A stretch of 64,000 nt of DNA. Source: Haliclystus octoradiatus. Its lineage: Eukaryota > Cnidaria > Staurozoa > Stauromedusae > Haliclystidae. A model generated the notes under the pieces. That model did no database searches. It saw only the letters and a list, made by a program, of their open reading frames with translations, and had not been told where the DNA came from. Below, piece after piece: positions 7,342 to 64,000 of the stretch; position 1 is the stretch's first letter, and each line of letters begins with the position of its first letter. Location of the stretch: assembly GCA_916610825.1 (NCBI GenBank), contig OU744448.1, positions 20,315,032 to 20,379,031 of the forward strand. The letters run 5' to 3'. A program made the position numbers and the translations under genes.

Positions 7342-7483
7342 TTAGAAAATAAAATAACGTTAATTATTAACAATCAAACAATTGATCTCACAGTTTTATC
7401 ATAATCATAAATAATTACCAAGGACTTTAATAAGGAACTTTAATAATCAATTAATAGAATCTTACAGTTATTAATTATGTTTT

Positions 7484-16286: not shown

Positions 16287-16320
<34 letters not shown>

Positions 16321-17182
16321 AATCACGGTTAATAGTTTCATCTTCAATAATTGGTCTTTCGTTAAATTGAACGTGTTCTTCACTTTCAGTTCTTTCTGAT
16401 AAAATTTTGCGTTTCTTTTTACCTGCTCTTTCTATCTTACTTGGTGAATTCTCATCAACAAGGTTTCTCTTTTTCACATTTATATCTCCAGCAGCTCGAC
16501 GATGTGAGGTGATTTTTTTAGTATCTTTTTCCGTTCCACGATTCGTTAATTTTTTAGGTTTGTTAGTTGAAGGCGACCGTGGACGATGCCATCTTCGATG
16601 TGATGCAAGATTTGCAGGACAACTAAATACTTTATCACATTCAGGACAACGATGCTCAATATGTTTTATACCAGAACATTTATGCTGTGCTAATGAAAAC
16701 GCATCTGTATAGATTTCTTTGCAAAGTTGACAAATGAATTTTGATTGTGTCAATGGGCCATTTATAATTGGTGTTGTCGTTGTTGCTGCTGTAGGTGATT
16801 TATTCACCATTGTTTTTGTTCTTACATTAGATTCTTTAACATTATGTGACGATGTTCTTTTAGCCTTTTCTGTAGATTTCCACGGATCAAATGATGATGA
16901 TGATGATGATGATGATGCTGACGATACCATGGGTTTGTAATGAGTATAATGATTACCAATCAATAAATTAGTTGGTCGTGTTTTTGATCTGATGACACTT
17001 TCAACTTCGTATTGCTGGTGATGACGTTCAGTGGTACCAACCACAACGAAGGCACTTTTATGACTTTGAATAAGAGGTGATATACTCTCCACGTCATTAC
17101 TTTTTAATATTCTTTTTGATGCTGATAATGATTGTTGTGGATATTGCCACTTTTTATTCTTTACAAGGAATGATCTTGGCAT
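16010..17182 (-). CDS. INSM: INSM (insulinoma-associated) zinc-finger transcriptional repressor, single exon
   Basis: The protein has about 390 residues and opens with [11 protein letters not shown], a SNAG repressor motif (MPRxFLVK) as in INSM1, Snail and Gfi. Residues about 149-201 hold the INSM signature pair of fingers: [20 protein letters not shown] (C2HC) and [20 protein letters not shown] (C2H2). A third C2H2 finger, [20 protein letters not shown], lies near 317-338, and a last C2HC-type finger, [20 protein letters not shown], near 363-385. A basic KKKRK stretch (about 255-259) may be a nuclear localisation signal. Poly-Ser (about 88-97) and poly-Asn (about 289-304) tracts come from in-frame microsatellites. 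The single-exon structure matches vertebrate INSM1. The family (INSM1, nerfin-1, egl-46) drives neuronal and endocrine progenitors out of division by recruiting corepressors (family knowledge). The start is fixed by SNAG, which must be N-terminal. Confidence 0.93.
16270..16320. repeat. (TTA)n microsatellite coding for poly-Asn in INSM
   Basis: An imperfect TTATTATTA run, read on the minus strand as AAT codons with a few AAC, encodes about 16 consecutive Asn between finger 2 and finger 3, followed by an acidic EDDNDEEKD stretch. Confidence 0.9.
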
Positions 17183-24370: not shown

Positions 24371-24563
24371 GTATACATATAAATGCAGGGTCTGTTGTAA
24401 TTGTAATTGTAATATCACGTGCCCCTTTTGCCATGTCATAGTATGGCAAGCACATCATCAACTGAGTGCAAGGCGAATGTACATTTTTTTATTGTGTCAT
24501 TATTTTTTGTTTATACATTGTAAAGTTTATTTAATAATCGTTCAATCTATTAGTTAAGTCATT

Positions 24564-25610
<1,047 letters not shown>

Positions 25611-25639
25611 TATTTTGATATTTTTTTATATAATACTGG

Positions 25640-28904: not shown

Positions 28905-29879
28905 TAAGTTTAGCAGTAGACAGTGAATTGGGCCAATATATTCCTAAAGCATTCCGAAGCATGACATCATAAGCTGAGTCAAGTCGGGTCAATAGTGAGG
29001 TTGATAGAACCCACGTTTCAGGTGCGTAAACTAGAACAGGTTCTATCGTGTGTCTGAACAGTCGTAACTTAACGTCAGTGTAGACATCGGACGCCCAGAA
29101 TTTTTTTAAACCTCTAATGGCAGCCCAAGTCTGACCTCTGCGCTGAGTTAATCATCTGAAGAAGATGGAAGCACGAAACCTATAGGTACTTAAACGAATC
29201 TCCGCGTTCTATGTCACCACTCGATGTAGCAAGGTGTGCCTGTTTTATGCCTAAAGCAATAAATTTCGTCTTAGTCTTGTTAATTGTCAATTCAACCGGT
29301 TCAACTTCATCAAGAATCTGTTGTGCATCAGATATGCTATTTGTTAAGATAGCAATATCGTCAACGAATGAAAGGTCCGATACACTGCGCTCTGGATGAT
29401 GTGAAGTCCTACGACGATCAAGGGTAAAAGCGGAAGAGTGAGGGCATTAAATACGAAAAACATAATCAATAACTAGAGTAAATAAAAAAGAGGACAATGT
29501 GTCACCCTGCAGTACGTCACAAGCTGTCGGGAAATCGTTAGTATCACCACGATTGGGTTCTAACAAAAGTAGAAGAATAAAAGGACATAATAGCATCGAT
29601 AAGAATAATTTGTACATTATAGAAATCTAATATTTCTGGGATTCTGCTTCTTAGGACAGAGTCAAAGGCCTTTTTGAAGTAAAAAATGCAACAATGTATT
29701 TTTGATGTGTCCTACAGCCTTCTAACAATATCCTAGCTGATAGAATTTGGCTTGAAGTTGACCGGCTATTTCTGCCACCATTTTGATTGTATCTTAAATA
29801 TAGGTCAATTACTGACGCCAGCCTTTTATGTAGAATCTTATTATTAGCTTTCCCTGCAGTACAACGTAAAGTGATACCC

Positions 29880-37690: not shown

Positions 37691-37763
37691 GGCCCGTTAG
37701 CTCAATCGGCAGAGCGTGGTGCTAATAACGCCAAGGTCATGGGTTCGATCCCCATATGGGCCA
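37691..37763 (+). tRNA. tRNA-Ile (anticodon AAT)
   Basis: The 73-nt sequence folds into a full cloverleaf. The acceptor stem GGCCCGT pairs with ATGGGCC (one G-U), followed by discriminator A. The D stem is GCTC/GAGC, the anticodon stem TGGTG/CGCCA with loop CTAATAA (anticodon AAT), and the T arm ATGGG-TTCGATC-CCCAT. A box (TTAGCTCAATCGG) and B box (GGTTCGATCCC) are internal. There is no intron. A CATTTTG run shortly downstream can act as pol III terminator. It reads Ile codons AUU, AUC and AUA after A34-to-inosine editing (general knowledge). Confidence 0.96.
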
Positions 37764-43597: not shown

Positions 43598-43999
43598 TTA
43601 AGTATTACCTGAAAAGCCTTTTCCTTCTTTTCCTTTGTTATTCATTGCCTTAATGCTAATTCCAAGTATCATAAGTATGCACACGACAAGTAAGAAAGCA
43701 GCGAATACCCCCAAGCCAATACTTAGTGATTGCATGTCAGTTTTATCATCATCGGCATCAACATAATCTTGTCTTGCTTTATGGAAATTTGCATTCATCA
43801 TTACATTGGATAACTTCAAATCATTGTTTTCAGTGATAAGTTCATCAATTGATTTATAGTTTTTCTTTTTTACACATTGAAAATCAACGACTTCGTCACA
43901 ACCATTGATAGCAAAGAAACTGGACGATGGTAAGTTCTTAACACCTGTGTTCGCTTCTATGATTCTTGTGAGGGTCATTGATTCAACTTGTTTGATTTC
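43598..43999 (-). CDS. part 4: last exon with peroxidase C-terminus, membrane helix and short tail
   Basis: The exon begins EIKQVESMTLTRIIEANTGV, continues through the family's C-terminal Cys region (FFAINGCDEVVDFQC), a polar stalk, then SIGLGVFAAFLLVVCILMIL and a 19-residue tail, SIKAMNNKGKEGKGFSGNT, before TAA (43598-43600). One hydrophobic helix followed by Lys gives a type I orientation, with the enzyme outside. The codons GGC TTT TCA GGT AAT contain CAG|GTAATA, a usable splice donor, so a longer cytoplasmic end in another transcript is possible. No NADPH oxidase part, as in DUOX, is seen downstream. Confidence 0.85.
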   Translation of the reverse strand, partial: EIKQVESMTLTRIIEANTGVKNLPSSSFFAINGCDEVVDFQCVKKKNYKSIDELITENNDLKLSNVMMNANFHKARQDYVDADDDKTDMQSLSIGLGVFAAFLLVVCILMILGISIKAMNNKGKEGKGFSGNT

Positions 44000-46900
44000 C
44001 TGAAATGACAAAAACCCATGAAAATGACTGAAGTCATTAGAACATCATGGTTCTGATTGATGTCATTGATTTGATCTATTAATTTATAAGCAGTGTCTTT
44101 ACATCCGCTATATGATCTGCGGTGAATGGTGCGTTTTACTCACAATGCCCTTCCGTCCAATAAAGATATCTTAAGAGACTTAAAAACAGTTGCTATATTG
44201 CGGGCTTTGTAAAACATGTTGATTTATGATACAACTGAACGATTTACTAAGAATTTTAGAGATGGAGTAAAAGCATGTAAGGGTATTATATGGAGAGATT
44301 CTCAGAGCAATGAATAATTTTTCCTTTCTTACCTCGGGTGTCATGATGTTTTCATACCAAAATCTATCACCATCTCTCACTCTTAAGAATGTCTCTAATA
44401 ATATCACACGGAATGTTTCTCCCATTTCTGAACCATCCTCATGATCTTCAGATAGACCACCAACCCATAAATCAATGTTATTCACGTTGCCATACAATTG
44501 TTTCAATTTCTTAGCAACTTCAACATTTTCCGTTATATCAGAAAAGTCCACTTTTTCTAGAAATTAAATGGAGACAGAAATATAAAGAAGAATCAAGTAA
44601 CGATCAAGTTCGACGTAGCAATTCCATTTTCCGTTTGGTAGTACAGAAGTATGAGTACAATGGCACTGAGTAAACACTTTGATAAAATACATCTGCTATA
44701 CACTACCTAGTATAGAGGTAGGCGTTAAGAACGCAACTAAAACTCTGTATAGCAACGATGCCAGGCAACGAAGAAGTCAAAGATGAATATAAATAATCAA
44801 CAACAGATAAGCCGTTCATATGACAATGAAAGTAATTTTTACTAGAAAACTTACTAATGCTGGATCGAGGGATGCATTTTCAGGCATGATAATTAGTCCC
44901 ATTGTAACTCGATATAGCGTATTTCCGCTTGTGATAATACAACTATTGACATGAAAGGCTTCAGCTATAGAGATGAAAGGCTTGTGCCAGGGAATAATTG
45001 TAACTGGATCAATAAATATACCCCCTGTAAGTTATCAAAGTCGAAATGATATAAAACATATTTAGGGTAGAAGAAGAAAGAGGGCTATCTCCTTCAAACA
45101 GTTACCTTTTAATCCCAGAAGTCTTCTAAATGAATTGTAGTCCGGTAAGCCATGCGATCTGCCTCGTTGGATGTTTATTGCCGCCAAGTCGAGACCGCTG
45201 TCCGGGCTTTTGGCAAAAAGTACGTTCCTCATTTCATCGACCATTAAAGGATCGATTTCCTGTGCAGGAAAATACATCATACCACGGATGAGCGGATCAA
45301 GACCGCCTTCATCTGAAAGCCTTTCTGGGGCAAAGTAGCATTCACGAAGTAATGCGTGTCCATATTCACTAGTTTCATAATTATCATCAAGGCGAAACAG
45401 GCGAGTGTTGACTTGACTATGACCAAAGCTGAAATAAATATGCATTGCATGGATATTGAAATTGAATAGCTTCAACATTGAAAAATGGAAAAAAAAATAA
45501 AAGTGAAAGTAGTAAACGTAAACCCAAGAAATTCTGATTTGGTTTCGAGAAGTCAGAAACGACGTACAGTACTAAAAAAAGCAGGATTCTCAAACTATCG
45601 TTCATTAGTATTTTCATGGTTTTTAACAATTTTTGTGATCGGTTGATTGCTGGTAACGTGACGTAAATTGAATCGATTACTTCCCTTTGAGATCGGGAAA
45701 TAAGTTGGTATTTTCCGTCGCTGGTAACAACGCGAAATACGTCATTGCAACTATGACAAATCAACAAAGTACATACAGATTTTCCAATCTTTCAGAGTGC
45801 AACAAAGTTTGCATTTAGCTTTCTCATAGCGCTTATAGAGGAAATGTAATGTAAGTAGCAAACTCTTATACAGTATTCAAAGAGGCTAACTGAGTGCAAA
45901 CAGAGAGAAATGTCGTATAGTCTTTAAAAATAATTACTTCTTGTTGAACTACTGCTCCTCTGAATTAACTCAGGGGATTTTACCGAAGAAAACGTAGCAA
46001 TAAGCATAGATCAAGCAAATAAAATAATGCTTTTCACTGAAATACTTTCACGTTTAAAGCAAGTTAAAAATGTTTCAAGTTTTTCTCAATCCTTCTATGC
46101 GTTATTGTTATTGTTGCGTTTTGCAGTACTGTAAGATTAATAATTCAAACTGCAACTTAATTGTCTAGTTAAAAAGCATGAATATACAAAGCACTGAATG
46201 TATGACTGCCCCAGGAAATAGTGAGTTCCTCGGACCCGCGGGGAATTAAAACTCATTACTTCCCTTATGTAAATCACTAGGCGCCATATACATAATACTA
46301 TACCCGATGTGAATTCGTACAACTCTAAAATCTAATACATATAAAAGTAGGACCTATAAAGACATTAAAGTTTGAAACAAGACATATTTGGCATAACCAT
46401 TTTAGATTGTTCATTAACATAAGGGTATTTTCATAATGCTGTAATGGAGGATAGTGATACATGATGGTAGGCTACACCTAAGTTAGTTAATGAAAGAGTT
46501 TGTCAAAAGAAAATTTGCTATAAATCATAGTGCATCTGCTAACCCAACAATCAGTTGTTATAAAGAATCGAAAACATTGATCCATATGAATTATAATCAG
46601 TGCTAATTCACTTACCGAAATGCTGCTGTTCCGAAGGCATTGGTTATCGATGGATCTACGTTTTGTTTGTATTGTCCATAGGCTGGAATATTGTGTTTGC
46701 CACCAAGTAGGGATGGTAAGTATTCATTAAACGCAATTGATTGAATCTCAGCTATTACGATACCTCGTGCATATTGAAATATCATTTCATCACTGGCCTA
46801 AAATCAGATAAATATGTCAAAACAAATATCTGAAGCAATACTAAATTTAAAAGACTTAAAGAAAAAACTGAATTTGGATGAAAAAATTACGTGTCATACA

Positions 46901-49900
46901 ATTTTTCAGAAACTGTGCTAGATTTGCCAAATAATTTTCTTCCACGATGGCTGACCTCGAAAATCATACCAGGACTCTAAATTACATTAAAAACCACTCC
47001 GCCAACGAGAGCTAACATTCAATATACGCTCATTAAAAGTATTGGAATATCGGGAGTACGAAAGTTTACGAGTTCAGATTTAAAATGGCGTCTACTTTCA
47101 AGTTCTCAAGCAACCTTAATAGAGTTAATAAGCAATCGAATGACGAGAATTGATAATTGACCCGGCATATTCTGTTGATCGATTAATAATGATCGGCTAT
47201 TGCTGTCGCACTGTATAAACATAAATAGAAATAGAAAAATAAACATCTGTTTTATGAAGCGCCATTGAATTATACAGTTAAAAAGGAATGGCGCTAAAAA
47301 TCTACTATTATTATTATCACTATAATTGACTTACGGTTGGGTTGCTTTGTTTGTAGTCGTTACAAATCCTGTTGTGTTCTCTTACAAATAAGGAATGCAT
47401 AGCCATTAGCCCTGGTTGAACATTTGCACGCGTATCTCCTGTTATATAAAGTTGTGCGGGTTCACGACCAACCTGATTGCTGTTGTCAAAACTATTTACA
47501 TTTTTCTGAAATGAAAAATAAAATGAGTTGGAGTCATTTACACAATTAAACAACAGTAATAATGGCATGGTAGTCCAATCTTTTAGTTCCACTTAAAATT
47601 TTTTCCTTTTGAATGTTTTTGGTCTGAACAGGATACAGAATTGTTTGGTCTACATTATTAGTCAATCCAGATAGAAAAATATTAACACCGTCACACTGGA
47701 ATTAGTGTCAGGCCCTTTTCGTCAGAATAATACAGGTCATCTTGGAAATTGCTTAGCATAATACATCTTAGTTTGCTTATTCTGCTGATTATATTCAAAA
47801 ACGATATTATAGTAAAACTTCAATATTAAAATTATTATTCTGGCATTAAGAGACTACCATGCTGGCATTGACAATGAAAAATCGAAGGGGTATTGAATCA
47901 AGACTGTTCGATAGATTATTCATGAGGATCCACGCGTAATGCATATAAGTATAATTCTGTTTATATAGACTATAGTATTGCGTATAACGCAAGGTCCATT
48001 GCGGTCTCAGTATCTTCTTCCTTCATGTATGCCTAATGCTTAAAAACATTGCAAGTAATATCAATGTCATGCGAACAACAAGTATGATATTTGTATAGTT
48101 ATGTACTTGACCAGGCAAACTTGGGGTCTGTGGATTTGAAAAGTAACAATGTGAAATGTTTAATGTAATGAGATTCATTGTGAAAAATTATGCGAAAATT
48201 TTTAACGAAATTATGTATGATTACCGGTAGAATTCCATCTGTGCCTTGCTTCATTTTACCATCTTTTAACGTCCTTAGTTCTTTATTTAGCTTAAGTGTT
48301 GTACCATAGACCATACTACCATCCATGTATGCAGAAATAAAATTAATCTGCTGTTTAGGTGAACCATTAGGATATATAGCCGTGCATCTAAAATCACATG
48401 AAGTAATATCACATGATTACACAAAATTATTTATACTTGAAAAACTGAAATATTTTCACCGCCGTCATTCCTAGTCATGTAAAGTGGTTGCTTCTTGTTT
48501 TTGTGTATTATGGCTTTTCGGAACTCATTAAAGTGACTCAGGTTGGAAATCGCTCACGTGCATTAATGTATCATTACACGACCAATACTTTACTTGGCCT
48601 TCAATCCAGGCACCTCTAACTTGAATCACTTGTTTGTCAATTTATGATATTAATATAACTATATTCCTTCTGCTCAGTAAATTCGCAAGCAAAGACATTA
48701 ATAAATTGAAGCAAATTATCCGAGACAAGATTACAAGATTCCATAGAAGTGTTACTTGTTAGGACCAGGGATGCTCTTGATGGCTTGTGAAAAAATTCTG
48801 CGGCGTCTGTGACACTCCATCTTGCAACCGTGCATAACCAGGGGCGGATCCAGCTGAAAATCTGACTGGTGCTGAAAGGGGACAATAAAGGGGCGAAGCC
48901 CCGTCATCTAGGGGGGTCCGGGGGCATGCCCCCCCGGGAAAATTTTGGTATTCAAAAGCTAATGAAGGGCTGTAACACCACTTTCGTAACTCCATCAGCA
49001 ATATTTCAACGTAATTATAAAGCTTAGATGATCAAATTTTACACCATCAAATAAATAAACACAATAAAAACAAAGAAAAAATTAAAAATGTATTTTATTG
49101 AAAATAAAAACATCTTGTGCTTAATTAGATCTGCATGCACTCAGACAGGCTATACAGCATACATTATGAATAAAACGTTTCAAATGCGAAATAATTAACA
49201 ACTACTTAAATTCAAATAAGCTGTTTAGACATCATCATCATTAGTAATAATTGTAAAACAAAAAGTTATATAAATCTTCTGATGTTTAAAATTGTAATTA
49301 TTACATCCAGTTGTAAAAGGTTTTGAATGCATGTACACAAATGAATTATAGGGGCAATCCATCAACATCTGAATAGACGTTCTACAAAAAAGGAATGGAA
49401 AACAGATGTATTTTCCCTGTCACTAGACATCAGCAAAACAGCAAGCCTACCCTGGGCTGGGTCTACCAACAGGCGACAGCGGCGCAAATGGAAGGGTTTG
49501 CAGCCAATCATTATTCATTCAGGCTGGAATTATGTCAATGTGTTATCGTAAGATCATCTGAATATGTGTGCTGAAACTAAACGGACATAATGATACAATA
49601 ATTTATTAGGCCTGTAAAAGTAGGCCTATTTATCAGGCCTTAAGGACCTTTGCTGGAAACGAGAAGAGGATCCACAACCAAAATATGTAAATACAGATCT
49701 CAAACATACGGTACTCGGCTACAATAAAATATTGAAACCAGTGAATTTAAAGCCAAAATAAAGACTACTAACTTTTAATCTACTAACCTCTTGTGATAAT
49801 GCATGCAATAGCGCTTCCAATTTTTGATAGGAAAATGAGTTCTTCTTGCAATTCTGCGAATTTTATTTACATTCTCAAACTTCTTGTTTCCTTGTGCTGA

Positions 49901-52900
49901 TTTTTTACATTGAAAGGTTGATAATAAGTCTTGAATCAGCTAGCTTTTGTCGACTGGAACTTTCTTCTTTAAATTACATGTTAAATTGTCAATATAGAGC
50001 AGATTCTGTAATAGCGCAGCAAGATAATGTTAAGCTTTCCTAGACGCCATGCTTGCAAAGGTGGAAGGCATAAACAACTTGACTTGATTAGACTTGATAA
50101 GTTAACACGAAGTTGAGAACAACACAGTCGGACTTTGTATTGTACTTGATTACTTGACGTCATTCTAATTCTAGCACTAAAAAAAGCAATAAAGGTGCTC
50201 ACTGGTGCTCACTGGTGCTCAAATTCCTGAGATTCCTAATTTAGAGAATATGATTGGTTGAAACGATTGGGCGAAAGCGAGAATGGAATGTTGATTGTTC
50301 TGACTGGTGCTCAAAGACGACATACGATTGGCTTTTAGATTTCCAGGGGTGCTCAGCCCTTGTTGCTGATTGGAAGATTGCTTTGAATCATTGATCCAAT
50401 GAAATGGTTCACTGAGAGAGTTCGGGACTGCTATCAGCAGTAAAATATGGCAAATGCAAAAATAACTGAAATCCTTCCGTTTCTATGGCAATATCAAATT
50501 ACGTCATTGCGGTAACATCACAGCTTTGAAAATCTGACTGGTGCTCAAGCACCTTTTGCCCCCCCTTGGATCCGCGCCTGTGCATAACTACAATAAATTA
50601 TTTGCCACCCCGGCATGTTCACGAGTGGGTTGGGTTTGTGACGCAGGCTATTCCCGATGCTTTCATATCTCAATGGGAAACAGGTATGACAGGGATACAA
50701 GAGCATATGTTCTGAATTTGCATCAAAGTGCGAGAGATTAAATTGTATAATGCGCTACACATGCAATCCTTAAGTCTTATATATCTATGTACCTATTCCA
50801 TACTGATCTAAGGAATGGCAGTGTCTTCTTTCCAGTATGCAATGGATCAAAATGAACGTCACCCTATAACAGCAAAAAAGGTTGATCTTAAAATACAATC
50901 AAACCATCCTCATCTTATGATCGCAGGAGAGTATAAAATCTCACTGGCAGAAGCTTGATACAAGCAATCGTTACCTTTGGTATAGGAATAGGTAGCCATA
51001 CTTCATTGATAGTTTTTTGATAGAGAAAGTGAGGTACTTCCAACGTATGATCCAAATCATGACTAAGAAACTATAACAGAGAAATAAAAAAAGATTTTTG
51101 AAAAATAAATAAAATCAACTAAATCATGCAATACAATAGTTATTGCAAATCATATAGTGACAGTTTCGCTGGGCTGGCAAAAGAGGAGAGGCAGAGGGTT
51201 CCAGCTCCCCGTTGGAGATACTCAGTCCCCTCGTCCGGGAAGAAAGTTTCAATTATCGGCAAAATTTTTGATACTTTTTCAACCATTTTTTCAAATATTT
51301 TCTACAAATAGCCCCCTCGTCGGGGGAGATGGCCCCATTGTCGCGGAAAATCCTAGTACCACTGTTGTTCTCAGTGATTTTGCTGTGGCAGAAGCGATCA
51401 AAATGTCTGGAAATGATTGATATTGTGTCAACAAACATAGATTTTTCAGGATCTTATTGATGTCAGACGAAGATGCTGATTTTAAATTCGAATTATTCAA
51501 TACTTGAGAATGTTAAATACATTTTATTTGGTTGATTTTCACAGAGGAAAGATAATATTATGGCCTATTTAAAATTCAACTATCCTTGATAAAAACGAGA
51601 TGTAAATGGCTGTCATAAAAGGAAAAGCACAACAGAAAGAATAGGAATAAAGAAAGTTCTGCCAGGAAGACCACACATGTCTTAATTTTCAAGTAGACAT
51701 TGAAATTAAAAGTGTCGACCTTGATAACCATTTTCCGGAAAACATTGATAACCTTGGTAGTGTATTTGGAAAGACCGTGCCCCTGGGATGTATTATTAAG
51801 AAATACCAATATGCGCCATGTGAAAAAGTCATATAGACGTCGTGCTTGCGTGCATTTTTATTTTAGATCGTGTCCATAATGACCGAATTGTCCTTGTTTG
51901 CCATGATGCTCCCATCTAGCTGCGAATCTCCCGGCTTTCAGGTGTGCATAAAGTATACTTCCTGCTGTAATGTGACAAGGCCTCTGCTGTGAGGTGCGCA
52001 AGTTGCATTTTAAATGTTTAAATTGAGTAAATAAATAATAAAGTTTTTATAAATTTCTGGCCATCATTTCCATCAAAACCTGCAAACTTAGGGTGCTAGC
52101 AAGATTCTCGAATATATAGAAAATATCGCAAAATATTATGTGGTGTTCTAATCGCTGATCACCATGATGAAGCTAAATTCAAATATTACATATTCAACAA
52201 AATAATTACAAAGTAGGTGATAATTCTGAGTAATGGTTTACTGTTTCTTTGAATAAAGGTAGGAAATAATAAAGGTAATATTGGTAGAAAAGTTTAAATT
52301 AATTATGAACCGCGTATAGAGAAGAGAATAGAGATAATGGTAGGACTAGGGATTTAGATAGATACTCACACACACCCCACTCTGTTTCATAATTTCTATC
52401 GAATTAGTTATGGATCTGAAATGTGATTGTCCTGAATTGCATTAGAAAATGCTTAACTATATAATCGCATACTTGTCCGAAATGCATCGTTAAGTCATTC
52501 ATCCTTCTAGAGCTGTGGACGTCTTGTTTCTGTGAATTAAGCGAAACAGAATTAGCAACACTATAGAGAAAGTGTACTGTTTTATAATTTACTATCAAAA
52601 TACACTTAGCCTAGCAATTTGATGCAGTAGCATACCTGAGCCATCAGAACATTGCTGATTGTTCTTGGCGATGGTCGTTCTGAGCCGTATCCACTCAAAT
52701 GTGTTGCATATGGACATTTACCAGCCATCACTTTCGTTCGACCGCATCCTGCAGCCGGCATAGCAATCCCATCACTATAATCACTATGTACCAGTCGCTT
52801 AAGATCTTCACCTATTCCACCCCAGCGTATATTCTCTTTATTATTGTGAAATCCATCGTAACGCCTAAAACTATAGATTAAGTCATTTGCTAGTAACTTA

Positions 52901-55900
52901 TAGGCCAAAGTGCTAATGTGATCAGGCTATACATACTGATAAAGGGATTCTGTTGTAATCACTCTTATAGTGGCATATATTACTACGGTAAACATTTCTC
53001 AACGACCATCATCATCAAGTTCTGATTTTCTTCCGTGCTATTTTCTTGTTGTTAAAACTTTGTCATATGCAGTATATATCGTGATGATATGGACGCTTAT
53101 TAATCAATAAAAAATACGGATTCTTACTTGATTGCGGGCGGGCTTGATTGTTTAGCTCAGATGATAGAGCAATCGAACTTTATCTGATCGACTGTGGTGC
53201 AATTCCCCGAAGGTCAATTTTAGCCTTGACTTTATTTAAAACATCAAATGAGTACCATCTAATGATGGAGGATGGAAAATCATTCAGAGGGATTTGCATT
53301 GTGAGTATAGCTGCACACTGACAACAAGGCATATCTGCCATGAAATCTGTTGAAATTTATCTGCAGTGTCTTACTCATTGCTTGATTGTTGGGCTCCAGT
53401 AATCATCGAAATACACATTATCTCGATATCACTATATCTCACAAATTCCATATATCATTAATCTCATACCATTATATTTTGTCAGTATATACATGTATGT
53501 ATATAATTACCTTTCATTTGCAGGTTTGATTTTAGGCTTGGTGAATCGTGCAAGCAATGGACACAAATCTCTAAATGCTTCAGGGTGAAGTTTAAGGTTG
53601 ACAACAGCGGAAATGTTGTAAGTCTGAGGAGAAGCATTTTGTGGTGGAACGAGTTTTATAGAATAGGCAAGGTCCTTCACTCCAATATTGAAAATCTGAG
53701 TATCTTTTGCCACAACTAATGATATCGATTTCTTGTCAGGACTAATGTTTGCCAATAATCCGTCTGGCTAAAAAACAGAAAGGAAAATTTATTAACTATT
53801 ATTTTCTAATAAGTGATAAATAATAAGTAATTTAAACGGTATCACCCTATCGAAGGCACCCATACCACTCTTCTGTTTCTAGAGGAGTGGCTCTTTTCGC
53901 TAAGAGCAGTGATTGTAAATACTCTTTACTGATCTCAATTCTCAGCCGCGACACTGCAGAGCAATTTCAACGGATTTCATGACATACACGCATCGACTGT
54001 CAATGTGCAACGATGCGCCAAAGCAACTCCCTCTGGACCATTCAATCCGCCCTCAGAAGATGGTAAGCAATTGATGTTCTAGATAAAGTCAAGGCTGAAT
54101 TGACCTTCGTGATTGGAGTGATTCAGATTATAGCTATATTGGAAAATGTAGTATAATCTAATGTACCTGTTTGGTGATTGTATCTAACTCCCACGTTGGA
54201 CATTGCTGAAGTTCAGCATATGTTATTTTATGTGATCTACACAAAAGAAAAACAGTACTAAACCGTTAAGCGGGTAATCAGATAATCAAGTTGATTATAT
54301 AATCATTTTAAAAATTAATTTTGAACATATTGAGCCACAACTTTATGTTGCGAAGTGTTCACGAAAACGGCTCAAACACCTAATGTATTAGCTTATCAGA
54401 ATGATAATACAATTTGCATCAATCAACCAGGTATTAGAAAGTGAATGATAAACTGTTACTGTTAATGATAAATTTGAAGGCATTGCTGATTCACAGCGAC
54501 ATCACACATTTCACGAAAATATTGCGAGTCACCCTATTGCTCAAACACTTAGTCGTCAGTCGATCGTATTACCTAGAGAGTATTTACAGGCTACGGTTCA
54601 AATCCATTACTTGAGATACTTTTTATTATTTGATTATCGGAAATGCTTATATCATTATGTATCATTGTCGTATGATTGTATATATCATTATATGGATTGA
54701 TAATGCAAAATCAATAAACAGAAGCTCAAAGGTCTGACTTGAGCAATTAATAGAGTAAATATTGAATGCAGGCTGAGACTCACGCCTCCCACGTTGGGAT
54801 TTAATAAAAATATTCCATCGTCTCTTCATAATACACCACCCGGGTTATCGATGTTTTCTTGAAGTAATTCTCGAGTGACTCTTTGGGAGCCTGTGAAAAA
54901 TATCTATTGGTCAACAAAGATGTTCCCGGGGTGTACGGATGCCACTGAATGACCTCTTCCGCCGTATAGCATGTAAATTTGGATCGCGCAATTTCCCAAG
55001 CTATATGTAGGGAAAGGTTGAAGGATGATCTGCAGTAAAAAGTACTTTACATCAAAGTATCGTATCATGTATCCACTGTTACACTCTGAAACATATCTTT
55101 CAAACCCATTCAATCACAGATGGTCAGTATTATGGCTATCGCATCATTGGTTTTATCTATTTCATTTATAGAATACAACGGTGTTACACACACTTACGTC
55201 GGTGGTCGTACAATTCGAAGAATAGTATTTGATGGTATATTCAGCACATGTAAAGTGATCTGCTTGGCTGGCCACTTAATCAATATTGTTATATTAGTAG
55301 TAAAGTTACCCAGACCAAAATGGGCTGTCCGTTCACTTTGACCAAGGAAATGAGAACTGGAACCAATCTCTTGCAGCTGCAATCACAAATGATAAGACGA
55401 ACGGATTTCATAGAATGTATTTATATTCGCATCCTTTGAAGATAGGAATTAAACAGCCATGTGAGAATAGGTCACAGTAGCAAGCAATCACAATGCAGTC
55501 ATTTTTAGTATTGCATGATTTAGTATTCATCGGTTAATTATGTGAGATGGAAGTTAATTCTTACCTGATTTCTCCCATCCGGTGTCATTACTTGTACTAA
55601 TGCACCATAACTGTCACATAGCTTCGTTTCGTCTCCCAAACATCTATGAATAAAAATACCAATGATAGCTAGGGTAATGTTTCTATCAATTCCTAGCCGA
55701 AGGTGTTTTCTTAGATGATGCTGTTTACTTGTTCATGACGATTATCTTAATCCAATTAGCTTTGTTTCCTCCGTCATTTCGAAAGATTTTAGCAGGACCA
55801 TAGTTAGCTGCAACAACAACATCTTCATCGCCATCATCTAAAATTTATAAACAATAGATTAATTAATCAATATCAAAGTGAATGAGGTAAATAACTATAC

Positions 55901-58900
55901 ATAATCACAGCTTATGGAGCGAGATACTTACTATCAAGATCAGCTTTTAGCAAACCTCTACCTTGGCCTGAGAACTTTAAGTTGTATTGTTCTGCAACCT
56001 ACATTATATAAGAAATCGTCTACATCGAACTATATTAATCTTTCACTCATTAGAAGCTCGTCCTAATTTAAAATTTTCATCCATTTTGTGATGAACATAT
56101 CTGCAGACAGTATCAATTGACATTTATTTGACAATGCTGAAATAGCCGAGTTCTAAATGGTGTGTCTGCTAATGGATTGAAGAATGGCTTATAATAATCT
56201 TGCTGATTAATTTCCAAGTACATGCATTGGCTATATTGTGTTACAAACAACTGTATTGATTGTTGGGGCTATCGAGGAATAAAAAGTGCTAAATTTATAT
56301 GTTAGCAGGATTTTGCGAATATAACTGCTCCATGGTTTGATTTGGCAAAGGCACAGACAAAGACAAACAACATTTTTAATTAAATTCCAAAACCACAGTC
56401 TATTTATATTTCTTTTGAACTAATAAGTGAGGAAATTGAAGCATTTATTCGAGAATTGGAATTCCATTAGGGAAAAACACGAACCCATCTTAGTTGGAAA
56501 GGCTTCATTTTGATTTTTTATTTAGCCACAAATGATCTTAATGATGGTCAATAGATTAGCATTTTGATACACTGCACTATGTTCAGTAATTTACTTGTGA
56601 AAATGCAGAGATCGTGGAATATATGTATTCTCATCCTAATGAAAAGATCGATCAATTTTAATATTTCTGACATACCTCTTTCATTTTGTAGACATTCCCA
56701 GGCTGTGTAGCTTCTCTTGTATTTTCAAAGAGTATCATGTTTTCAATAGCAAATATATCTTCAATCGTCGTACTTGGAAGATCAAAACCTAAATGGTAGT
56801 GGTAATTATATTATTTATTTTAAGTTTTTGTTTATATTTACTTTTCTATAATATTACCATTGTAGTTGCACCACTAGAAGTAAACTATTGTTTTACACGT
56901 ATTAACACCTGGAAGAATAAGGAATTGCTTTCGTAGGTCACAAGGAGACTGGGGGCTCTTTCAAATATTTGTTCCAAATTTGGGGAATTCTCCTCTGAGC
57001 TGATTGCTTACGTTTTCATCCAGTTGTTTGTTTGAGCTGTGTATCATATCGCTTAGTCTACATTTATGTTAATAATCAACATTAATACTGGCATGATACA
57101 TGATGGCATAAATGAATGATTTCAATAAAAGTGCTGTTATCTTATATATTTGAAAGAATCCCTTAAGCTATTTCTAAGACGTTTACTTCCTACCCGCTTC
57201 CTAATTTGCATCAAACTATTCGTTGGAAACATCTTACCATTCGTGTGGACAATATCAAGGTATCCATCATTGTTGAAATCAATTGGCGCGGCACCCCATG
57301 CCCATCCACCATTGGTAACACCAGCCTAAATGAATATAAAAATGGTTTGTACTTGCCCACGAAACACACTCTATAATCAACCTCAGTCAAATGTACTTCG
57401 ACGCTCTCGTAGTCTAGTGCAAAAGAATGGATCAACATTATTCATGCTTTGTATATATGTATATATATATGTATATATATAGCTTCTGATTCATTTTCAA
57501 ATGCTCCTTTCAGAAATGTCTTTCGTTGAATAGAAGTGAAGGCGTGGAGGATGGGCACAATCTTTACCAAATTCTGAACCTCGTGCATATTGCTCCCTGA
57601 ACTACTCTTTACCTGACATACATGCAACATCCTCTTGCCTTTCTTTATCTTGTATCGTAAGTGATTCTGGTCACTTAACTATAAGTTATAATCAACACGA
57701 GACATCATTGATATTGCAGCAGTATAGTGTGATCGAATTCAGAAGCTGTTATAAATGTTTTTTATGGTGATCTGAAGTGTACTATCCATACGATGTACAG
57801 TAAAATTTGCTTTATATCCTCTCTGGTGTATGCAAGAAAAGAGGGATATTTAAGTGAATGATAATGGGAAATTATGAGAAGTAGAATCTTAGATTTCGTA
57901 TGGAGATTGGAGACTAGAAATTTGTTTCAATTATGCTGGTATATTAAACAATGTGAGACAATAAGAATTATGGAGATGAGAATTAAGAATTAATTAAGCA
58001 TGTCCATCTGTAGTGTCCTCCGATATTCATCCTAGATGAGAAAGAAGAGTGTTATGAGGATCAATTCTTACTCACCCTCGACGTCATTTGTGTAAAAGTT
58101 TTATTTCCATCACTCATAAACAACTGGTTACTGCCTCCGAACAAACATCCCAACACACTGTGGCAATCATTCCTGTCTAAATAAATGCCAGCCGTAAACC
58201 AATCGAGATTACCATCATTATTCCAATCACCTATACTGTGCCCCATTGAATTAGAGAACACGGCGAGGCCACATTGTCTTGTACATTCTGTAAATGTACC
58301 ATTCTTATTATTCCAGAACATTTTACTTTGATGGTAATCAGCTGTCACTAATAATTCAGGGTAACCATCCATGTTAAAATCCTAATAAATGTAATTAGCA
58401 AATCGTATTTTTATACAATATTCCAACTACAATCACAGTTCCTATTCGATATGCAGGCTACGGACTTACCGTGAACGATGAACCGAAAGTATGTGTACCA
58501 GCGCTTTGATTAACTCCTGATCTTAACCAAAATGAATCCATGTTGACACCAGCAAAATCGGTGGTATCTTCAAAATATCTAAATGATCAAAAGTAATGAT
58601 GAAATATAATATATACTGCATTATATAATTTGTCAGTAGCTTTCAATATCGTAATAAATATTACGTTACTAGAGGATTGAATCTTATAATAAACGAATAC
58701 AATTAATTAATCTACCCAATATGTAATTCCCGAGTATATGCCCTTGTTTGTTTGTTTGTTTGTTTGGACTTATTATCAATTATTATACCGCTTCACTTGA
58801 TAGATACAGGTGTGTGGTGGGTATTACTTTACATATTATGTTGATATATATATATAATGTATTATTCTTTCTTGTATGAATATAAAATGGTCAGAGAGAC

Positions 58901-60397
58901 CTATTTGTATTGCTTTACTTTTTCATTAATTTTACTGTCTTATGTGAATATTGATTGGGGATGGACATGAGGTTGAGGAGATGTCAAAGGTACTTAACTA
59001 ATCAAATGAATGAATCACACATCATACTTACCCAGGTTTAGTTGCTCCTAAATTTCTCAGCAGACGTGAGACAGATGGCTAGAAAAAGACAAAGTTATTA
59101 CATGACAAGCTTGAAAATTGTTTGGTTATCATTCCAGACTAGTGGCAGATTTGAATTGTTTGAACGTAGTTTCACATATTCCCGGTCGGAGCACATCGCA
59201 TGTATCTTATAGACAAAAATAGTCTACTTATAGGATTACAACTACACTTTTGTCAATCAACTAGTCAAAATCGCTTCAAGTGCAAGCTCCACCTTTTTCT
59301 TCAGTAGCAAATTCAATTAGATCAAATGTGGTTCTAGTTCTACAATAAAGTTATAAAGAATCAACTTTGAAATAAATAATATTTGTACAAACCTTTCCAC
59401 TGTTATGAAAAATCCATTCAGTTGTATAAATGTCGAGGTAGCCATCATTGTCATAATCACCAAAGCTTGGCGTCATGCCAGCTAACTTCCTTTTTGTCGG
59501 TGATTCCATGGAAACATTTCTTTCTACTGCTTCTTCTTCAAAATGCCCACCATAGTTTACATACAGGTAATGCCGTGTATCACCGACTGTTGTCACATAA
59601 AGATCTAAATCCCCATCTTGATCAATATCAATAAAGCCTGCTCCATTGCCAAACAGATTAGGACCAACTCCTGTCTCAGCTGTAACATTCGTAAACGTTC
59701 CATTTCCTGATGCATGCAATTACGCAAATGTGTCACATGGTTAGAATGATAATAATGATAGCTTATTTATTAATAGAGTGCATTTTTCAAATTGTCTTCA
59801 AGGCGCAAAAAAAAGTGATTAACATTCTAAATAAGTAATATAGTCTTTAGCAAATTATAACAATTTAAAAAAAATTATATTGGTTCGAAGAATGAATAAT
59901 AAGATACAAAGATGAGGCAAAAGCCTTTTTCCGTATTTTTCCATCTTTGTCTCCTATTATATAATGCTCTGTTTTGCCCAACATTGAGCACTTTCATATT
60001 CATATGTGTATCTGAGTTTACACTATCGTTATAATTAGTTTTTTTTAATTATTAATATTTGAAGAATGAATAAATAAATAATAGAAAGAAAGAAAGAATA
60101 GTTAAAATGAGATGATGGACAAAACATTCTGAAGACCTATCAAAAATTAAGATAAATTTACTTACCATTATTCCTGTAAAGTATACTCCTGCCTCCGTGA
60201 ACAGTGAAAAACAAGTCAATCAACCCATCATTGTTATAATCTCCAGCTGCAACGCCACCGGAAGTATGATCGACTTGGCAAATTTGACCTGTTATAGTTT
60301 GAAACCGAGATGAGTCGAACGTTGGTAAGATTAAATCAATTGAGCAATGGGGTCGAAGAGCCATCTCCTCTCGATGATGATGCGTTATTCCGAGGTT
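43598..60397 (-). CDS. FG-GAP/ASPIC-UnbV plus haem peroxidase fusion, type I membrane protein (22 exons, 5' end missing)
   Basis: Exons in transcript order: 60397-60166, 59706-59393, 59078-59032, 58578-58470, 58381-58076, 57325-57238, 56788-56676, 55998-55932, 55837-55729, 55643-55565, 55376-55198, 54236-54167, 53767-53511, 52864-52636, 51070-50975, 50863-50793, 48387-48225, 47505-47335, 46797-46616, 45428-45106, 44556-44333, 43999-43598. All junctions are GT-AG and all phases agree across 3831 bases (1276 codons plus stop) with no internal stop. Residues about 1-465 form an FG-GAP/VCBS propeller, 470-548 ASPIC/UnbV, 549-656 a linker, 657-1200 an animal haem peroxidase, and about 1240-1262 a membrane helix. 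The first exon found starts in phase 0 after an acceptor with NLGITHHHREEMAL, so a signal-peptide exon should lie upstream. An ectodomain that oxidises substrates with H2O2 at the cell surface is inferred. Confidence 0.88.
44333..52864 (-). CDS. part 3: animal haem peroxidase domain (exons 14-21)
   Basis: The domain opens RRYDGFHNNKENIRWGG, the usual YDGxxNN start. Exon 14 ends SNVLMAQ and exon 15 gives FLSHDLDHT, with distal His (about residue 737) and calcium Asp. Exon 17 has QQINFISAYMDGSMVYGTT, the calcium loop. Exon 18 has TGDTRANVQPGLMAMHSLFV and REHNRI, with the catalytic Arg (about 869). Exons 19-20 give FRFGHSQVNTRLFRLDD with the proximal His (about 964), then AINIQRGRSHGLPDYN. Exon 21 gives NNIDLWVGGLSEDHE and RVRDGDRFWYEN with the Asn that bonds the proximal His. 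The two haem-ester residues of myeloperoxidase-type enzymes are replaced: Ser before the distal His (usually Asp) and Val three residues after the catalytic Arg (usually Glu). Length and order are complete for the family. Confidence 0.93.
48839..50580. mobile_element. hAT-like non-autonomous element in intron 16
   Basis: The ends are CAGGGGCGGATCCA and, on the other side, the reverse complement CAGGCGCGGATCCA (13 of 14 match). An exact 8-bp target duplication TGCATAAC flanks the element (48831-48838 and 50581-50588). Inside both ends is GAAAATCTGACTGGTGCT. The word CTGGTGCTCA recurs at 50200-50220 and 50305, as subterminal motifs do in hAT elements. The 1742-bp body has no transposase. It lies between exon 17 and exon 16 of the peroxidase gene. 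Confidence 0.9.
53146..53378 (+). mobile_element. SINE copy, 3'-truncated, in intron 13
   Basis: The copy has the tRNA-like head (GATTGTTTAGCTCAGATGATA), a decayed B box (GGTGCAATTCC), and the body words TTTAGCCTTGACTTTAT, AACATCAAATGAGTACCATC and CTGCAGTGTC, where it stops. Its orientation is opposite to the gene. Confidence 0.82.
53511..54236 (-). CDS. part 2: linker exons 12-13 joining the propeller to the peroxidase
   Basis: Exon 12 (54236-54167) encodes SHKITYAELQQCPTWELDTI and on to TKQ. Exon 13 (53767-53511) encodes PDGLLANISPDKKSISLVVA through PPQNASPQTYNISAVVNLKL to PKIKPANE. Exon 11 ends in phase 2 with AC, exon 12 supplies A to complete Thr; exon 13 ends in phase 2 with AG, exon 14 supplies G to complete Arg. 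These two junctions carry the fusion claim. The linker has no family I recognise, two NxS/T sites, and a beta-rich look. A conserved Cys (CPTW) and another near FRDLCPLLARF could pair. Confidence 0.85.
53838..54133 (-). mobile_element. SINE copy in intron 12, same strand as the gene
   Basis: Read on the minus strand, it has AGGTCAATTCAGCCTTGACT, GGTCCAGAGGGAGTTGC, CTGCAGTGTCGCGGCTGAG, ACTGCTCTTAGCGAAAAGAG and the end GGTGCCTTCGATAGGGTGAT. The tRNA-like head is mostly lost. It is inverted relative to the copy at 53146-53378. Confidence 0.82.
55198..60397 (-). CDS. part 1: seven FG-GAP/VCBS repeats and ASPIC/UnbV domain (exons 1-11)
   Basis: Seven calcium-type DxxxDGxxD motifs occur in order: DYNNDGLIDLF, DIDQDGDLDLY, DYDNDGYLDIY, DFNMDGYPELL, DWNNDGNLDWF, DFNNDGYLDIV and DLDNDGDEDVV. 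Seven is the count expected for a closed seven-bladed propeller. The last motif is split between exons 8 and 9. Exons 9-11 give NYGPAKIFRNDGGN, then IGSSSHFLGQSERTAHFGLG and the Trp-Pro turn IKWPAK, the ASPIC/UnbV signature (family pattern: GSGYLSQ...LHFGLG...WPSG). This order is that of CRTAC1 (cartilage acidic protein 1), a secreted glycoprotein. Many NxT/NxS sites, such as NGTFTNVT and NKTFT, fit an extracellular position. Taken alone this half would be called CRTAC1-like. Confidence 0.92.
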
Positions 60398-61413
60398 CTG
60401 TTATAAATAAATTAAGCTATAAATAGTCAAAAGCTATATATTTTCATACTGCTTGATACATTTTGATAACTCTTTTGTCTCGATTATTGTATTATTCTTT
60501 ATTCATTCGACAAGTTTTAATGTTCATAATATTACTGTAAAGTTGTTCAAGGTAATTGTTAACTGTGCAACTTTAATAAAGTCTTTAAACAAGAAGACTA
60601 AAATGGGGGTTTCTTATGAAAAAGCCACTTTCAATTGAATTATTGATTCTTAAAAGTAAATCAGCTAAAACATTTGATTTTTCCAAGTTTGAAGTCGATA
60701 CGATAAGAAATGACAGATATATCGATGGTTTAATACGTTTATTCTGCCACGCGTTTATTTTTTGAAAACGCCATGACGTTTTGGAAACTGCAGTTCGCGC
60801 GAAAGGAAAGCCACGTTCTGTTCGCTCATTTGTTTGTTTACCTTACACAACTCAAAATTTGTCCTTTGTTATTTCGTCTTGTTTCTGAGATGAAGAATAA
60901 AACATGTATTTTTTAAAACTAGACCTTGGATTTGTTAATGATACTTCAAATAATATTACTAACTCCGAGTTCATCTCTTCAATCACTCTCTAATACAAGC
61001 AAATACAAGCATGGACAACTTTGTATAATAGTTTACAGCCATAATAATGGAGCAGTATTAATAATAATAATACGCAAACCGTGTCGGTGATCAAATCACC
61101 ATTGTTTCATTATTGTTAAACTCCTTTTCCGCAGAGCACTTTCCAAACTTTTTATACGCTTCTGGGTTATCTATAGGCCTTTGGCTATCCGACGTTTTGT
61201 TTTTACAGCTTAAAATGCTATAAATTGCTCATAAATTGCGATTAAAATTTCCAAAATCGTGATATTTCGACGGAAGTTATGTGAAAATAAACTGCTTTCC
61301 TTGGTGTATCCCGTCATGCCTAGCAACATCACGAATTTTAGAGCACGCTTTATTTTAATGGCTGCCAATATTTCGTAGCAGTGTTACATCATATTTTGCA
61401 AAAATATTCCAAT
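60398..61413. other. region between two divergent gene starts
   Basis: This holds the intron upstream of the first peroxidase-fusion exon I could find, and the 5' flank of a candidate plus-strand exon. Around 60750-60850 the sequence is unusually CG-bearing for the window (CCACGCG, TTCGCGCGAAAGG), which could mark a promoter. I could not find the missing signal-peptide exon. Confidence 0.3.
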
Positions 61414-61480
61414 ATGCCTAGAAGGATAAGTGGTCCAACAATACTCCATTTTACATCACAAACAGAAGACACAATTCTCG
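61414..61480 (+). CDS. candidate first coding exon of an unrecognised gene
   Basis: ATG at 61414 opens MPRRISGPTILHFTSQTEDT, then IL and one base, ending at a consensus donor GTAAGT (61481). The 22 codons are polar and without a signal peptide. No second exon was found before the window ends, so the gene would continue to the right. I do not recognise the start. Confidence 0.35.
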
Positions 61481-64000
61481 GTAAGTCTTTTACAACTTAA
61501 ATGTTTAAATGCTTCATGTAAAGTCTGTCGAAGTCACTCATACCGTGGTTTTTACCCTGTTGCATGAGGGCTTACAGGACTCTGATGGCAATTGTTACTT
61601 TTAGTTTTCTTTTAAGTATCATAATCCCAAATAGCCTACTTTGTTATCAAGTCATCGTTGGCAGAAGAGATTACTGTGTCACTGTATCGCCAATATTAGC
61701 TTGATTTGTTATGAACTGTTCTCCGTTGGAAGAAAGGATTTACTGTGTCACCGTTTTATGTCAGCAGTTCTGTTTTGTTATCCACTGCACACACAGAGAT
61801 TTGACCCATAACAAATAAACAAATTCAGAGAATTGGTGTGGTACTTTTCAGTCGTCAAGCAGTTGTAAGTTGTACAAATACAAAATTGGAGTTGTAATTT
61901 AGAATTTTAGCTGCCTTCTATCCTTTTGTCGAAATGTACATTTATAATGTGCCATACATTGACAACGTCCACTGTGTCCACACATTGTTTACTTTAATCA
62001 TTATTATATGAGGTATGTGAATGGTGACCATTATGGACATGTGTAATCTCTGTGAGAAGTTGGCTAAAGTTAATAAAATGTTAGAGTTTGGGTCTCTCAT
62101 TTATGTAATTTACTGTATCAAATTTCAGAATCACCTGTTGTTATTACCAATGTCACTCAATGACTCATGCTGAGATTCACTCAACCGACACAGCAATAAT
62201 ATTTACATACCAATGCCTTTCATTGTGAAAACAAGTTCATTAACTGCAATACGTAACATACAATCCATATTTATTTCATTTGAACTATGTAGTCAACATA
62301 AAATGTACTTATGGATAACCCATATTTACAAATATATTTGATTTGAAATATGTAGTACAATGGAGTATCAATTATCTCCTTTTCACTATGCTTTACATGT
62401 ATGTAACGATTAATTATCAAAACTGAAATGAATTATCAGTGTTGTTCTGCATTTTTAATTCCTTCTCATGACTATTTTATTTCATTGACATTCTCTTTGA
62501 CAAGACATACTGCAGGCTACTAACGGGAGCGAAGCGACCTCTTTGAGGAAGCCGAAGGCTGACTGGCCCCGGGCGCAGGCCGCAAGCTTGAAGCAATTTG
62601 AAGGCTTGTTATTAATAAATCGACTACAATAAAATCAACGTCGGTTGATGATAGAAATTAGTGAGTCCTTGTTGATATTCTTTATAAATGGAAAGCATAA
62701 TACCTGGCGGAAACTCATTGTCTGTGTGAAAGAGCTGATGATTTATTTAAGACAAAGAAGGAGATGATTGGTAATTTGAGGAAATTGGCATCGATCAATT
62801 TGTCGTCATGGCAGAATTGACTTGTCTCTAATCATAGTCAGTAGAAAAGAAAATTTAAATTTTCTATTCTATTGACTATGCTCTAATACAATTCAATTAT
62901 ATAAGGCTTTATGGACTACTTTCTAATATTAAAGAAATAACGAAAACTGGATTTTTAACAAGGACCGACTTTTCGAAAAAGCTATACATGCTAAATCCGC
63001 CCATAAATCCATCAAACAGTGTAATAATAATAATAACGATAATAATATAATAATATTAATAGTGTGATTGTTCCACACCAATTCTTGGTATAGTGCTCAA
63101 TGAAATTAATCAGAGCATTTATAGGTTGAAATAGATCGCCTGATGATCACCTTCTTGTGTAAAACTTGAAGTAGCTTAATTATAGAAAGTTCAATTTTTG
63201 ACTCTCATTCTAAATGTACAAGATATATATACATAATTCAAATCTTTAAGATGCTTCATTGTCATACAACTTTATACAGTTTATCATTAGCTTGATGTAT
63301 GGCTAAGATAAGCTAAAAATTACATATTTTACGGCAACATTTTCGGAATAGCACGCCCATTAATCCAGTCATATCAAAACAACAAGAAAAGCGACTTCAT
63401 CAATAATAAATATGTAGAATAGCCTCCCAATCGACATAGCGACTGCGCTAATCGGAGAAACTATACAAAGGGGGTCTGCAAATCGTTGGGTGCTATATTC
63501 TACGCATATGTTAGCAAATAATTTTCATTAATTGACGATTTTGAAGAAAACAATGATTTTGAAGAAAACAATGTGTTGTTTGAAAAGTACGAAAAGTTTG
63601 CAGCCGGTTTAAACGTATTCAAGCAGACGAAGCGCAGCAGACGAGCAATATTTGTCCAATGCGTCTAGACAAAATTGTATATACTTTTCCTTGCATCTCA
63701 CAGACGCCAGAAATTTGATGTAAAAAGACATACGGTGTCACAGACGTTATTATTATGATTCTTTATTTATGGCTTATGAAAATAGTACATGATATTCCAC
63801 GTGGTTTCTTAATTAATCCCACTGCTCAGACTGAACGGAGCAACTTTAAAACAAGGACAATCAAGATATATTAAAATTATACTACATAGAGTAACTTCAT
63901 AGATCTAATGAATGCAAAGCTGCAAACAGTGAAAAGCAAGATTTTGTAAATATCATGCTCATCTGCTCTTCTCCGTTCCCTTTGCTCTAATTTATATTAT
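61481..64000. other. no gene seen; minor repeats
   Basis: This would be the first intron of the candidate plus-strand gene or plain intergenic DNA. A GC-richer patch at about 62520-62615 with GCGAAGCGACC and GCCGAAGGC words looks like a repeat fragment. A 17-bp unit (TTTTGAAGAAAACAATG) is duplicated near 63540-63572. Nothing else can be supported. Confidence 0.35.

Follow-up and report, generated by a model that had tools for sequence, protein, structure and literature searches.

Within 64,000 nucleotides of the Haliclystus octoradiatus genome (contig OU744448.1, positions 20,315,032 to 20,379,031; the whole stretch is termed the window) a single minus-strand gene was found, in which a propeller, an ASPIC domain, a linker, a haem peroxidase and one C-terminal membrane helix follow each other in this order. 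Very probably, its product is an active peroxidase at the cell surface, and on sequence grounds it belongs to a little-noticed family with members in hydra, corals, anemones and sponges. The fused proteins may represent an ancient eukaryotic branch of the peroxidase-cyclooxygenase superfamily that has gone unrecognised. It would have been assembled a single time, from bacterial-type components, and would combine the full catalytic site of halide-oxidising peroxidases with the loss of both haem esters; animals would have added the membrane helix and so gained an oxidant at the cell surface, and a later loss in bilaterians is possible. Taken as a whole, this proposal is given slightly less than an even chance of being right.

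Manual splicing of the minus strand between 60397 and 43598 joined 23 coding exons into a single frame of 1295 aa and a stop (Table 1), with GT-AG at each junction used and with matching phases. The first-pass annotation, made from the letters of the window, had described such a chain; its single frame and matching phases stand, its count of 22 exons does not. The phase is also kept over the two junctions which that annotation had singled out, 55198/54236 and 53511/52864, leading from ASPIC through the linker to the peroxidase. Two pseudo-exons with good splice signals were dropped, i.e., 45024-44855, after which the downstream frame breaks, which is by eye unlike any peroxidase and whose omission keeps the frame open to the end, and 48127-48107, which is in frame, optional and unnecessary. 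The exon at 60397, taken before as the start of the gene, is internal, since aligned relatives extend about 90–115 residues further in front (10 of 11 relatives; about 41 residues in P0003, whose front is apparently cut). No convincing upstream exon was found within 60400-64000 by the N-termini of homologues. The first coding exon (C4:20379384-20379121) was located by these N-termini and by the upstream DNA of a paralogue, both of which led to the same site, 90–353 bases beyond the end of the window; it opens with a signal peptide-like stretch and is preceded by an in-frame stop. The complete gene has 24 coding exons, introns of 85 to 3692 bases and a protein of 1383 residues. Signal peptide and C-terminal helix were judged by hydrophobicity, without a dedicated predictor.

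In the 1295-residue protein Pfam finds FG-GAP_3 (five stretches), FG-GAP, UnbV_ASPIC and An_peroxidase together, the last of them (PF03098) at residues 657-1185 and over positions 2-525 of the 530 of its profile (E 9.4e-155). The propeller contains seven Dx[DN]xDG calcium motifs. The C-terminal helix is the top hydrophobic stretch among the 1295 residues, and 18 of the 19 cysteines lie outside it. Neither LRR or Ig domains nor an NADPH oxidase part, as in Dual oxidase, were detected by Pfam in the window protein. With 24 exons in frame, the Pfam domains in one protein and the predicted helix at its end, the former view of one gene that encodes one protein with a membrane helix is upheld at the level of the gene model.

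It could be argued that two neighbouring genes, one for a secreted propeller/ASPIC protein and the other for a membrane peroxidase, were wrongly joined across their boundary. Read-through of the exon 11 donor meets a stop immediately, and a short propeller-only isoform could exist. However, the linker exons 12 and 13 keep the frame, carry conserved cysteines and have a low ratio of nonsynonymous to synonymous change (dN/dS) against a paralogue, and 26 of the 120 listed homologues described below are single proteins in the same order; a wrong join of this kind is regarded as extremely improbable.

The genome search covered the whole assembly (262 million bases, 33 contigs) and found at least three ASPIC loci. 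The near paralogue (C4:20427919-20448488) lies head-to-head with the window gene, the first exons being about 48.5 kb apart, and has the same 24 exons and phases; of these exons, 20 agree exactly in length and four are longer or shorter by a multiple of three. Each of the 20 DNA matches between this pair of genes overlaps with an exon, those of the linker (12 and 13) among them, and exons 15 and 17 of the near paralogue, missed at the DNA level, were detected at the protein level. By a simple counting method, dN/dS for this pair is 0.16 overall. It is lowest in the peroxidase (0.12) and the propeller (0.13), amounts to 0.19 in both ASPIC and the linker, and is highest in the two terminal exons, with 0.29 in the first and 0.28 in the last; since synonymous change (dS) is near saturation (about 1.2, and 3.4 in exon 13), these values are rough, that of the linker above all. 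The linker is nonetheless preserved at the protein level, in frame and between the two domains. The second paralogue, on contig C11, was traced over exons 0-11 and 13-24, and its exon 12 was not located. As a separate observation, dS between the window gene and the near paralogue is uneven, at 0.38-0.60 for exons 10-12 and for the last exon vs. about 1.2 for propeller and peroxidase exons, and some of their DNA matches extend into introns; gene conversion between them is suggested by the sequences.

The protein search gave 1106 matches, of which 120 are listed, and is not a survey of taxa. A protein in which UnbV_ASPIC and An_peroxidase stand together, for which the first-pass annotation had proposed to search, was found 27 times among these 120, in forward order in 26 cases and reversed in one (P0044). 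That annotation had also regarded the fusion as lacking any known precedent, yet public databases already contain the architecture for Hydra, Porites, Corticium, Sycon and, as a truncated entry, Actinia; two further named forward-order proteins, from Orbicella and Actinostola, are without the front. It had counted transcripts that never join the two halves as evidence against itself, and the relatives, with both halves in single proteins, contradict such a separation. P0001-P0007 are 47-50% identical to the window protein, group among the named cnidarians and sponges in trees and were classed, together with these, as animal-type, and P0001-P0011 align with it end to end, linker included. P0002-P0007, full-length and with uninterrupted frames on contigs of 4.4-5.3 kb, look like transcripts. 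Another 12 forward-order rows, at 28-36% identity, are probably protists; one of them comes from EukProt and is hence a eukaryote. None of the organisms named for a fusion protein among the 120 homologues is bilaterian. P0021, a EukProt peroxidase, has no ASPIC by Pfam, and its front resembles by eye a worn ASPIC domain.

In P0044 the peroxidase comes first and propeller/ASPIC last, in one protein that likewise ends in a C-terminal helix. Its peroxidase groups with the archaeal loci L037 and L040 (100/99), which were ruled out as reversed fusions of the same kind, as they consist of tandem peroxidase frames, the propeller frame of L037 being on the opposite strand. Since these partners are unfused, P0044 is taken as an independent fusion. 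As to bacteria, 46 loci were obtained from 84,980 species genomes, and both halves are joined in none of their open frames of 250 aa or longer; the scan used two peptide patterns, both from the peroxidase part, and because some fused proteins (e.g., P0017) lack them, it leaves the absence of a bacterial fusion undemonstrated. The 32 pattern matches on viral contigs included no relative. Two planctomycete loci, L004 and L023, have two tandem peroxidase frames each.

The active site was compared over an alignment of 24 fused peroxidase domains (P0044 included) and 132 others, 155 of 165 matches being kept; P0012, P0025, P0032, and P0035 lie outside it, and the 132 are not independent, because several frames per locus and close relatives were included. 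The distal Gln, His and Arg, the calcium Asp and the proximal His occur in all 24 fused domains, and the proximal Asn in 23 (P0044 is without it). The window protein, with the motifs GQFLSHD, GDTR, FRFGHS, and NIQRGR, keeps the distal Gln, His and Arg and the proximal His-Asn, and so do both paralogues; the haem peroxidase recognised at first pass has its catalytic residues intact. By contrast, the haem-ester Asp is found in none of the 24 fused domains vs. 121 of the 132 others, and the haem-ester Glu, present in 128 of the 132, is missing in 21 of the 24 (it is kept in P0009 from Porites, P0013 from Orbicella and P0044). An alignment-free motif count over 26 proteins (the window gene, the two paralogues, P0001-P0020, P0022, P0024, and P0026) gave the Asp in none and the Glu in two (P0009, P0013). 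The ester Asp is replaced by Ser in the window protein and both paralogues, and the ester Glu by Val in the window protein, which lacks the signatures of families 1-3 (MPO/LPO, peroxidasin, peroxinectin), namely GQxxDHD with the ester Asp and RxxE with the ester Glu (PMC4420034; this and all other papers are cited from excerpts of their text).

The members of the myeloperoxidase type studied so far have one or two haem ester bonds, and the redox potential rises with the number of bonds (PMC5787809); such bonds occur in eosinophil peroxidase and myeloperoxidase (PMC10679500). Loss of both ester carboxylates points to a haem that is held non-covalently and is less oxidising, suited to tyrosine cross-linking or peroxide removal over chlorination. 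That the fused peroxidases form no ester bond at all is a prediction. Loss of the motif is in itself not new to the superfamily, and what is unusual here is that it is lost while the catalytic site is fully kept.

In the peroxidase tree (81 hand-picked domains; P0023, P0027, P0104, and P0107 not included) 16 animal-type fusions form one clade (100/93), and together with P0021 and nine other fusions they again form one (100/100). Nine animal peroxidases, two of them from the genome that carries the window gene, constitute a separate clade (100/99), and four bacterial-type peroxidases adjoin the fused clade (89/83): two Hellea and one Paraglaciecola, all three Pseudomonadota, and one unnamed. 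In the propeller tree (60 domains; P0022 fell below the coverage limit) 15 animal-type fusions are one clade (100/100), and a 97/93 branch has 33 bacterial-type propellers on one side and all 27 fused ones, even the long-branched P0044, on the other. With a root among the bacterial propellers, both halves would fit a single forward fusion. The propeller half was initially termed CRTAC1-like, a name that finds no backing among the 120 listed of 7963 propeller matches, drawn from a capped set of candidates, since no row there is named as animal CRTAC1 and the organisms named are bacteria, most rows being unnamed.

In P0015 the linker is a Big_9 domain (Pfam), and hhalign of animal-type linkers with those of P0015 and P0016 gave, in a single comparison, a probability of 74.6 (E 2.7e-5) locally and 25.5 globally. 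Pfam detected Big_9 neither in the window protein nor, at E up to 1, in P0001, P0008, P0010, or P0017, and the animal-type linker may be a degenerate form of this domain. Of 16 animal-type rows (window gene, paralogue, P0001-P0014), 14 have a strong hydrophobic helix at the C-terminal end, the exceptions being P0010 (isoform X2) and P0012 (cut short), vs. none of the 12 other forward-order fusions, and therefore the membrane anchor looks like an animal addition.

Among solved structures the best sequence match is 8s6c, a peroxidase of Cyanobacterium TDX16 (molecule name Lactoperoxidase), which was also the best fold match (TM 0.86 by target length, 0.45 by query length) of a model of the Orbicella relative P0013 (pLDDT 75.4, pTM 0.56; propeller front missing). 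Its 528-residue chain has no propeller, ASPIC or membrane helix and, unlike the window protein, contains the ester Asp and Glu. The second best is DdPoxA of Dictyostelium (PDB 6erc), in which the ester Asp is likewise lost, being replaced by Ile; unlike the window protein it keeps the Glu ester, is secreted and has no propeller. The proteins of Hydra vulgaris (V9GVG1, P0008), Porites lutea (P0009), Corticium candelabrum (P0010) and Sycon ciliatum (P0011) share with the window protein the domain order, the linker cysteines and the lost ester Asp at 45-47% identity, and all except the listed Corticium isoform have the C-terminal helix; Sycon has a long extra stalk. Peroxidasin, peroxinectin and DUOX (families 2, 3, and 7; PMC4420034) have PF03098 and an extracellular setting in common with it, DUOX being membrane bound too, and differ by LRR/Ig domains, by the lack of a propeller or by the NADPH oxidase part; peroxidasin-type rows belong to a different clade from the fused peroxidases, and Dual oxidase has lost the proximal His that the window protein keeps. 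Prostaglandin synthases, i.e., cyclooxygenases, match at E 1e-20 to 1e-17 vs. 1e-113 for 8s6c. In CRTAC1 and bacterial FG-GAP/ASPIC proteins the FG-GAP propeller is followed by ASPIC/UnbV, as in the window protein, but there is no peroxidase; the nearest listed rows are 37-44% identical and bacterial where named. The known Hydra foot peroxidases were rejected as the same gene, those named in the excerpts of PMC5080974 being of the PF00141 and PPOD1 types.

Several points weigh against the origin and chemistry proposed here. The unfused P0021, which stands beside the animal-type fusions in the tree, has the ester Asp, and the diverged fusions P0025, P0032, and P0035, possibly pseudoenzymes to judge by their motifs, match neither the distal nor the proximal His motif. 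Cyclooxygenases (family 4) and DUOX (family 7) lack the ester motif as well (PMC4420034). The KGD tripeptide at residue 872 of the window protein and its 13 glycosylation sequons are sequence motifs only. A tree in which the animal-type fusions, with P0021, are forced to group with the animal peroxidases is worse by 26 log units and is not rejected (p-AU 0.057), and the separate origin rests on nine animal rows, in a tree without verified peroxinectin, chordate peroxidase, DUOX or cyclooxygenase. Moreover, DdPoxA, which has one ester and does not oxidise chloride, still oxidises iodide and thiocyanate fast, so that pseudohalide chemistry is possible (PMC5787809).

One may ask, in view of the forced tree, if the protein is an ordinary animal peroxidase of the peroxinectin or peroxidasin type that gained a propeller. 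The Hydra relative is called Peroxinectin in UniRef, and KGD occurs in the same place in 14 of the 26 scored proteins and elsewhere in two more, the tree being without a verified peroxinectin; yet the fusions, animal-type and unnamed, form one clade and the nine animal peroxidases another, and with no LRR or Ig domain present such an ancestry is judged quite unlikely. A halogenating or pseudohalogenating surface enzyme for defence would make use of the distal Gln, which is tied to halide binding (PMC4420034) and is invariant in the aligned fusions, and the speed of DdPoxA on iodide and thiocyanate is in keeping with it. This enzyme, however, already fails on chloride with one ester, and the potential predicted for a haem without both esters would be lower than its -0.276 V (Fe(III)/Fe(II)); halogenation, which the first-pass annotation had listed among possible tasks, is not supported, both carboxylates being lost here and in most relatives, and a defensive role of this kind is considered rather unlikely. 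A dead peroxidase domain that serves as an adhesion scaffold, as was proposed for DUOX, would agree with the three diverged fusions, but the window protein and both paralogues retain the distal and proximal residues, which makes a scaffold very unlikely.

The preferred explanation, given about an even chance as a whole, is that of a type I cell-surface membrane protein with non-covalent haem and one-electron chemistry, derived from a single ancient fusion. The calcium-stabilised propeller would bind matrix or a cell-surface partner, and the helix would hold the enzyme at the membrane. Hydrogen peroxide would convert the non-covalently held haem to compound I, which would take single electrons from tyrosine or phenol groups, leading to cross-linking of matrix or mucus, or to peroxide disposal, and not to hypochlorite. 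The fused gene would have arisen once, from bacterial-type parts, before the sponge-cnidarian split. Cross-linking as the main job of the fused peroxidase is suggested only tentatively.

Table 1. Coding exons of the fused gene in window positions; E numbers count from the exon at 60397.
Feature	Position	Strand	Content
First coding exon	64090-64353	-	88 aa, signal peptide-like start; outside the window
E1 (second exon of the gene)	60166-60397	-	propeller region begins
E2	59393-59706	-	propeller
E3	59032-59078	-	propeller
E4	58470-58578	-	propeller
E5	58076-58381	-	propeller
E6	57238-57325	-	propeller
E7	56676-56788	-	propeller
E8	55932-55998	-	propeller; last calcium motif starts here
E9	55729-55837	-	propeller; last calcium motif continues from E8
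E10	55565-55643	-	ASPIC/UnbV
E11	55198-55376	-	ASPIC/UnbV; ends in phase 2; the stop met on donor read-through is TAA
E12	54167-54236	-	linker
E13	53511-53767	-	linker; possibly degenerate Big_9 domain
E14	52636-52864	-	haem peroxidase begins
E15	52473-52529	-	distal Gln (FGQ) at its end
E16	50975-51070	-	distal His; haem-ester Asp replaced by Ser
E17	50793-50863	-	peroxidase; KGD across the E16/E17 junction
E18	48225-48387	-	peroxidase
E19	47335-47505	-	distal Arg; haem-ester Glu replaced by Val
E20	46616-46797	-	peroxidase
E21	45106-45428	-	proximal His and Asn
E23 (22nd coding exon in the window)	44333-44556	-	peroxidase
Last coding exon	43598-43999	-	peroxidase end, stalk, membrane helix, tail of about 17 residues, stop

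An 813-base dispersed repeat lies in intron 1 of the gene (61094-61906). The genome has at least 39 more copies of it at 95-97% identity (40 of 554 first-look candidates were scored), which looks like a young family of mobile elements; a diverged copy lies upstream of the near paralogue. Elsewhere in the window there is an intronless zinc-finger gene of the insulinoma-associated (INSM) type (16010-17203, minus strand), for which the best-ranked matches naming an organism are cnidarian (Nematostella, Acropora, Clytia, Xenia). Retroelement frames lie at 4934-7345 (plus strand; gag/aspartyl protease) and at 27505-28943 (minus strand; two overlapping reverse transcriptase pieces). A run of ATT triplets, about 1 kb long and with 97% matches, occupies 24561-25614, and a tRNA-Ile gene lies at 37691-37763 (plus strand).

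The domains themselves are known, and the database entries that combine them are uncharacterised or bear other peroxidase names. In the literature searched, most subscription journals being outside the search, neither a description of an ASPIC-peroxidase fusion nor a report of a family-wide loss of the ester residues was found, in line with the first-pass claim that the architecture is undescribed; no paper there contained both UnbV and An_peroxidase, or UnbV together with peroxidase and cnidaria, and PMC2573899, by its abstract on human splice variants, contains both "ASPIC" and "animal haem peroxidase." Genes termed peroxinectin-like were linked to heat stress in corals (PMC9578555). The cyclooxygenases and DUOX, which are likewise without the ester motif, belong to different families and differ in their chemistry (PMC4420034). 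If the fused peroxidases indeed form no ester bond, a natural family with the same catalytic residues would extend the series of ester numbers and directly test what these bonds do. Sponges and cnidarians would also be credited with an oxidant that acts at the cell surface.

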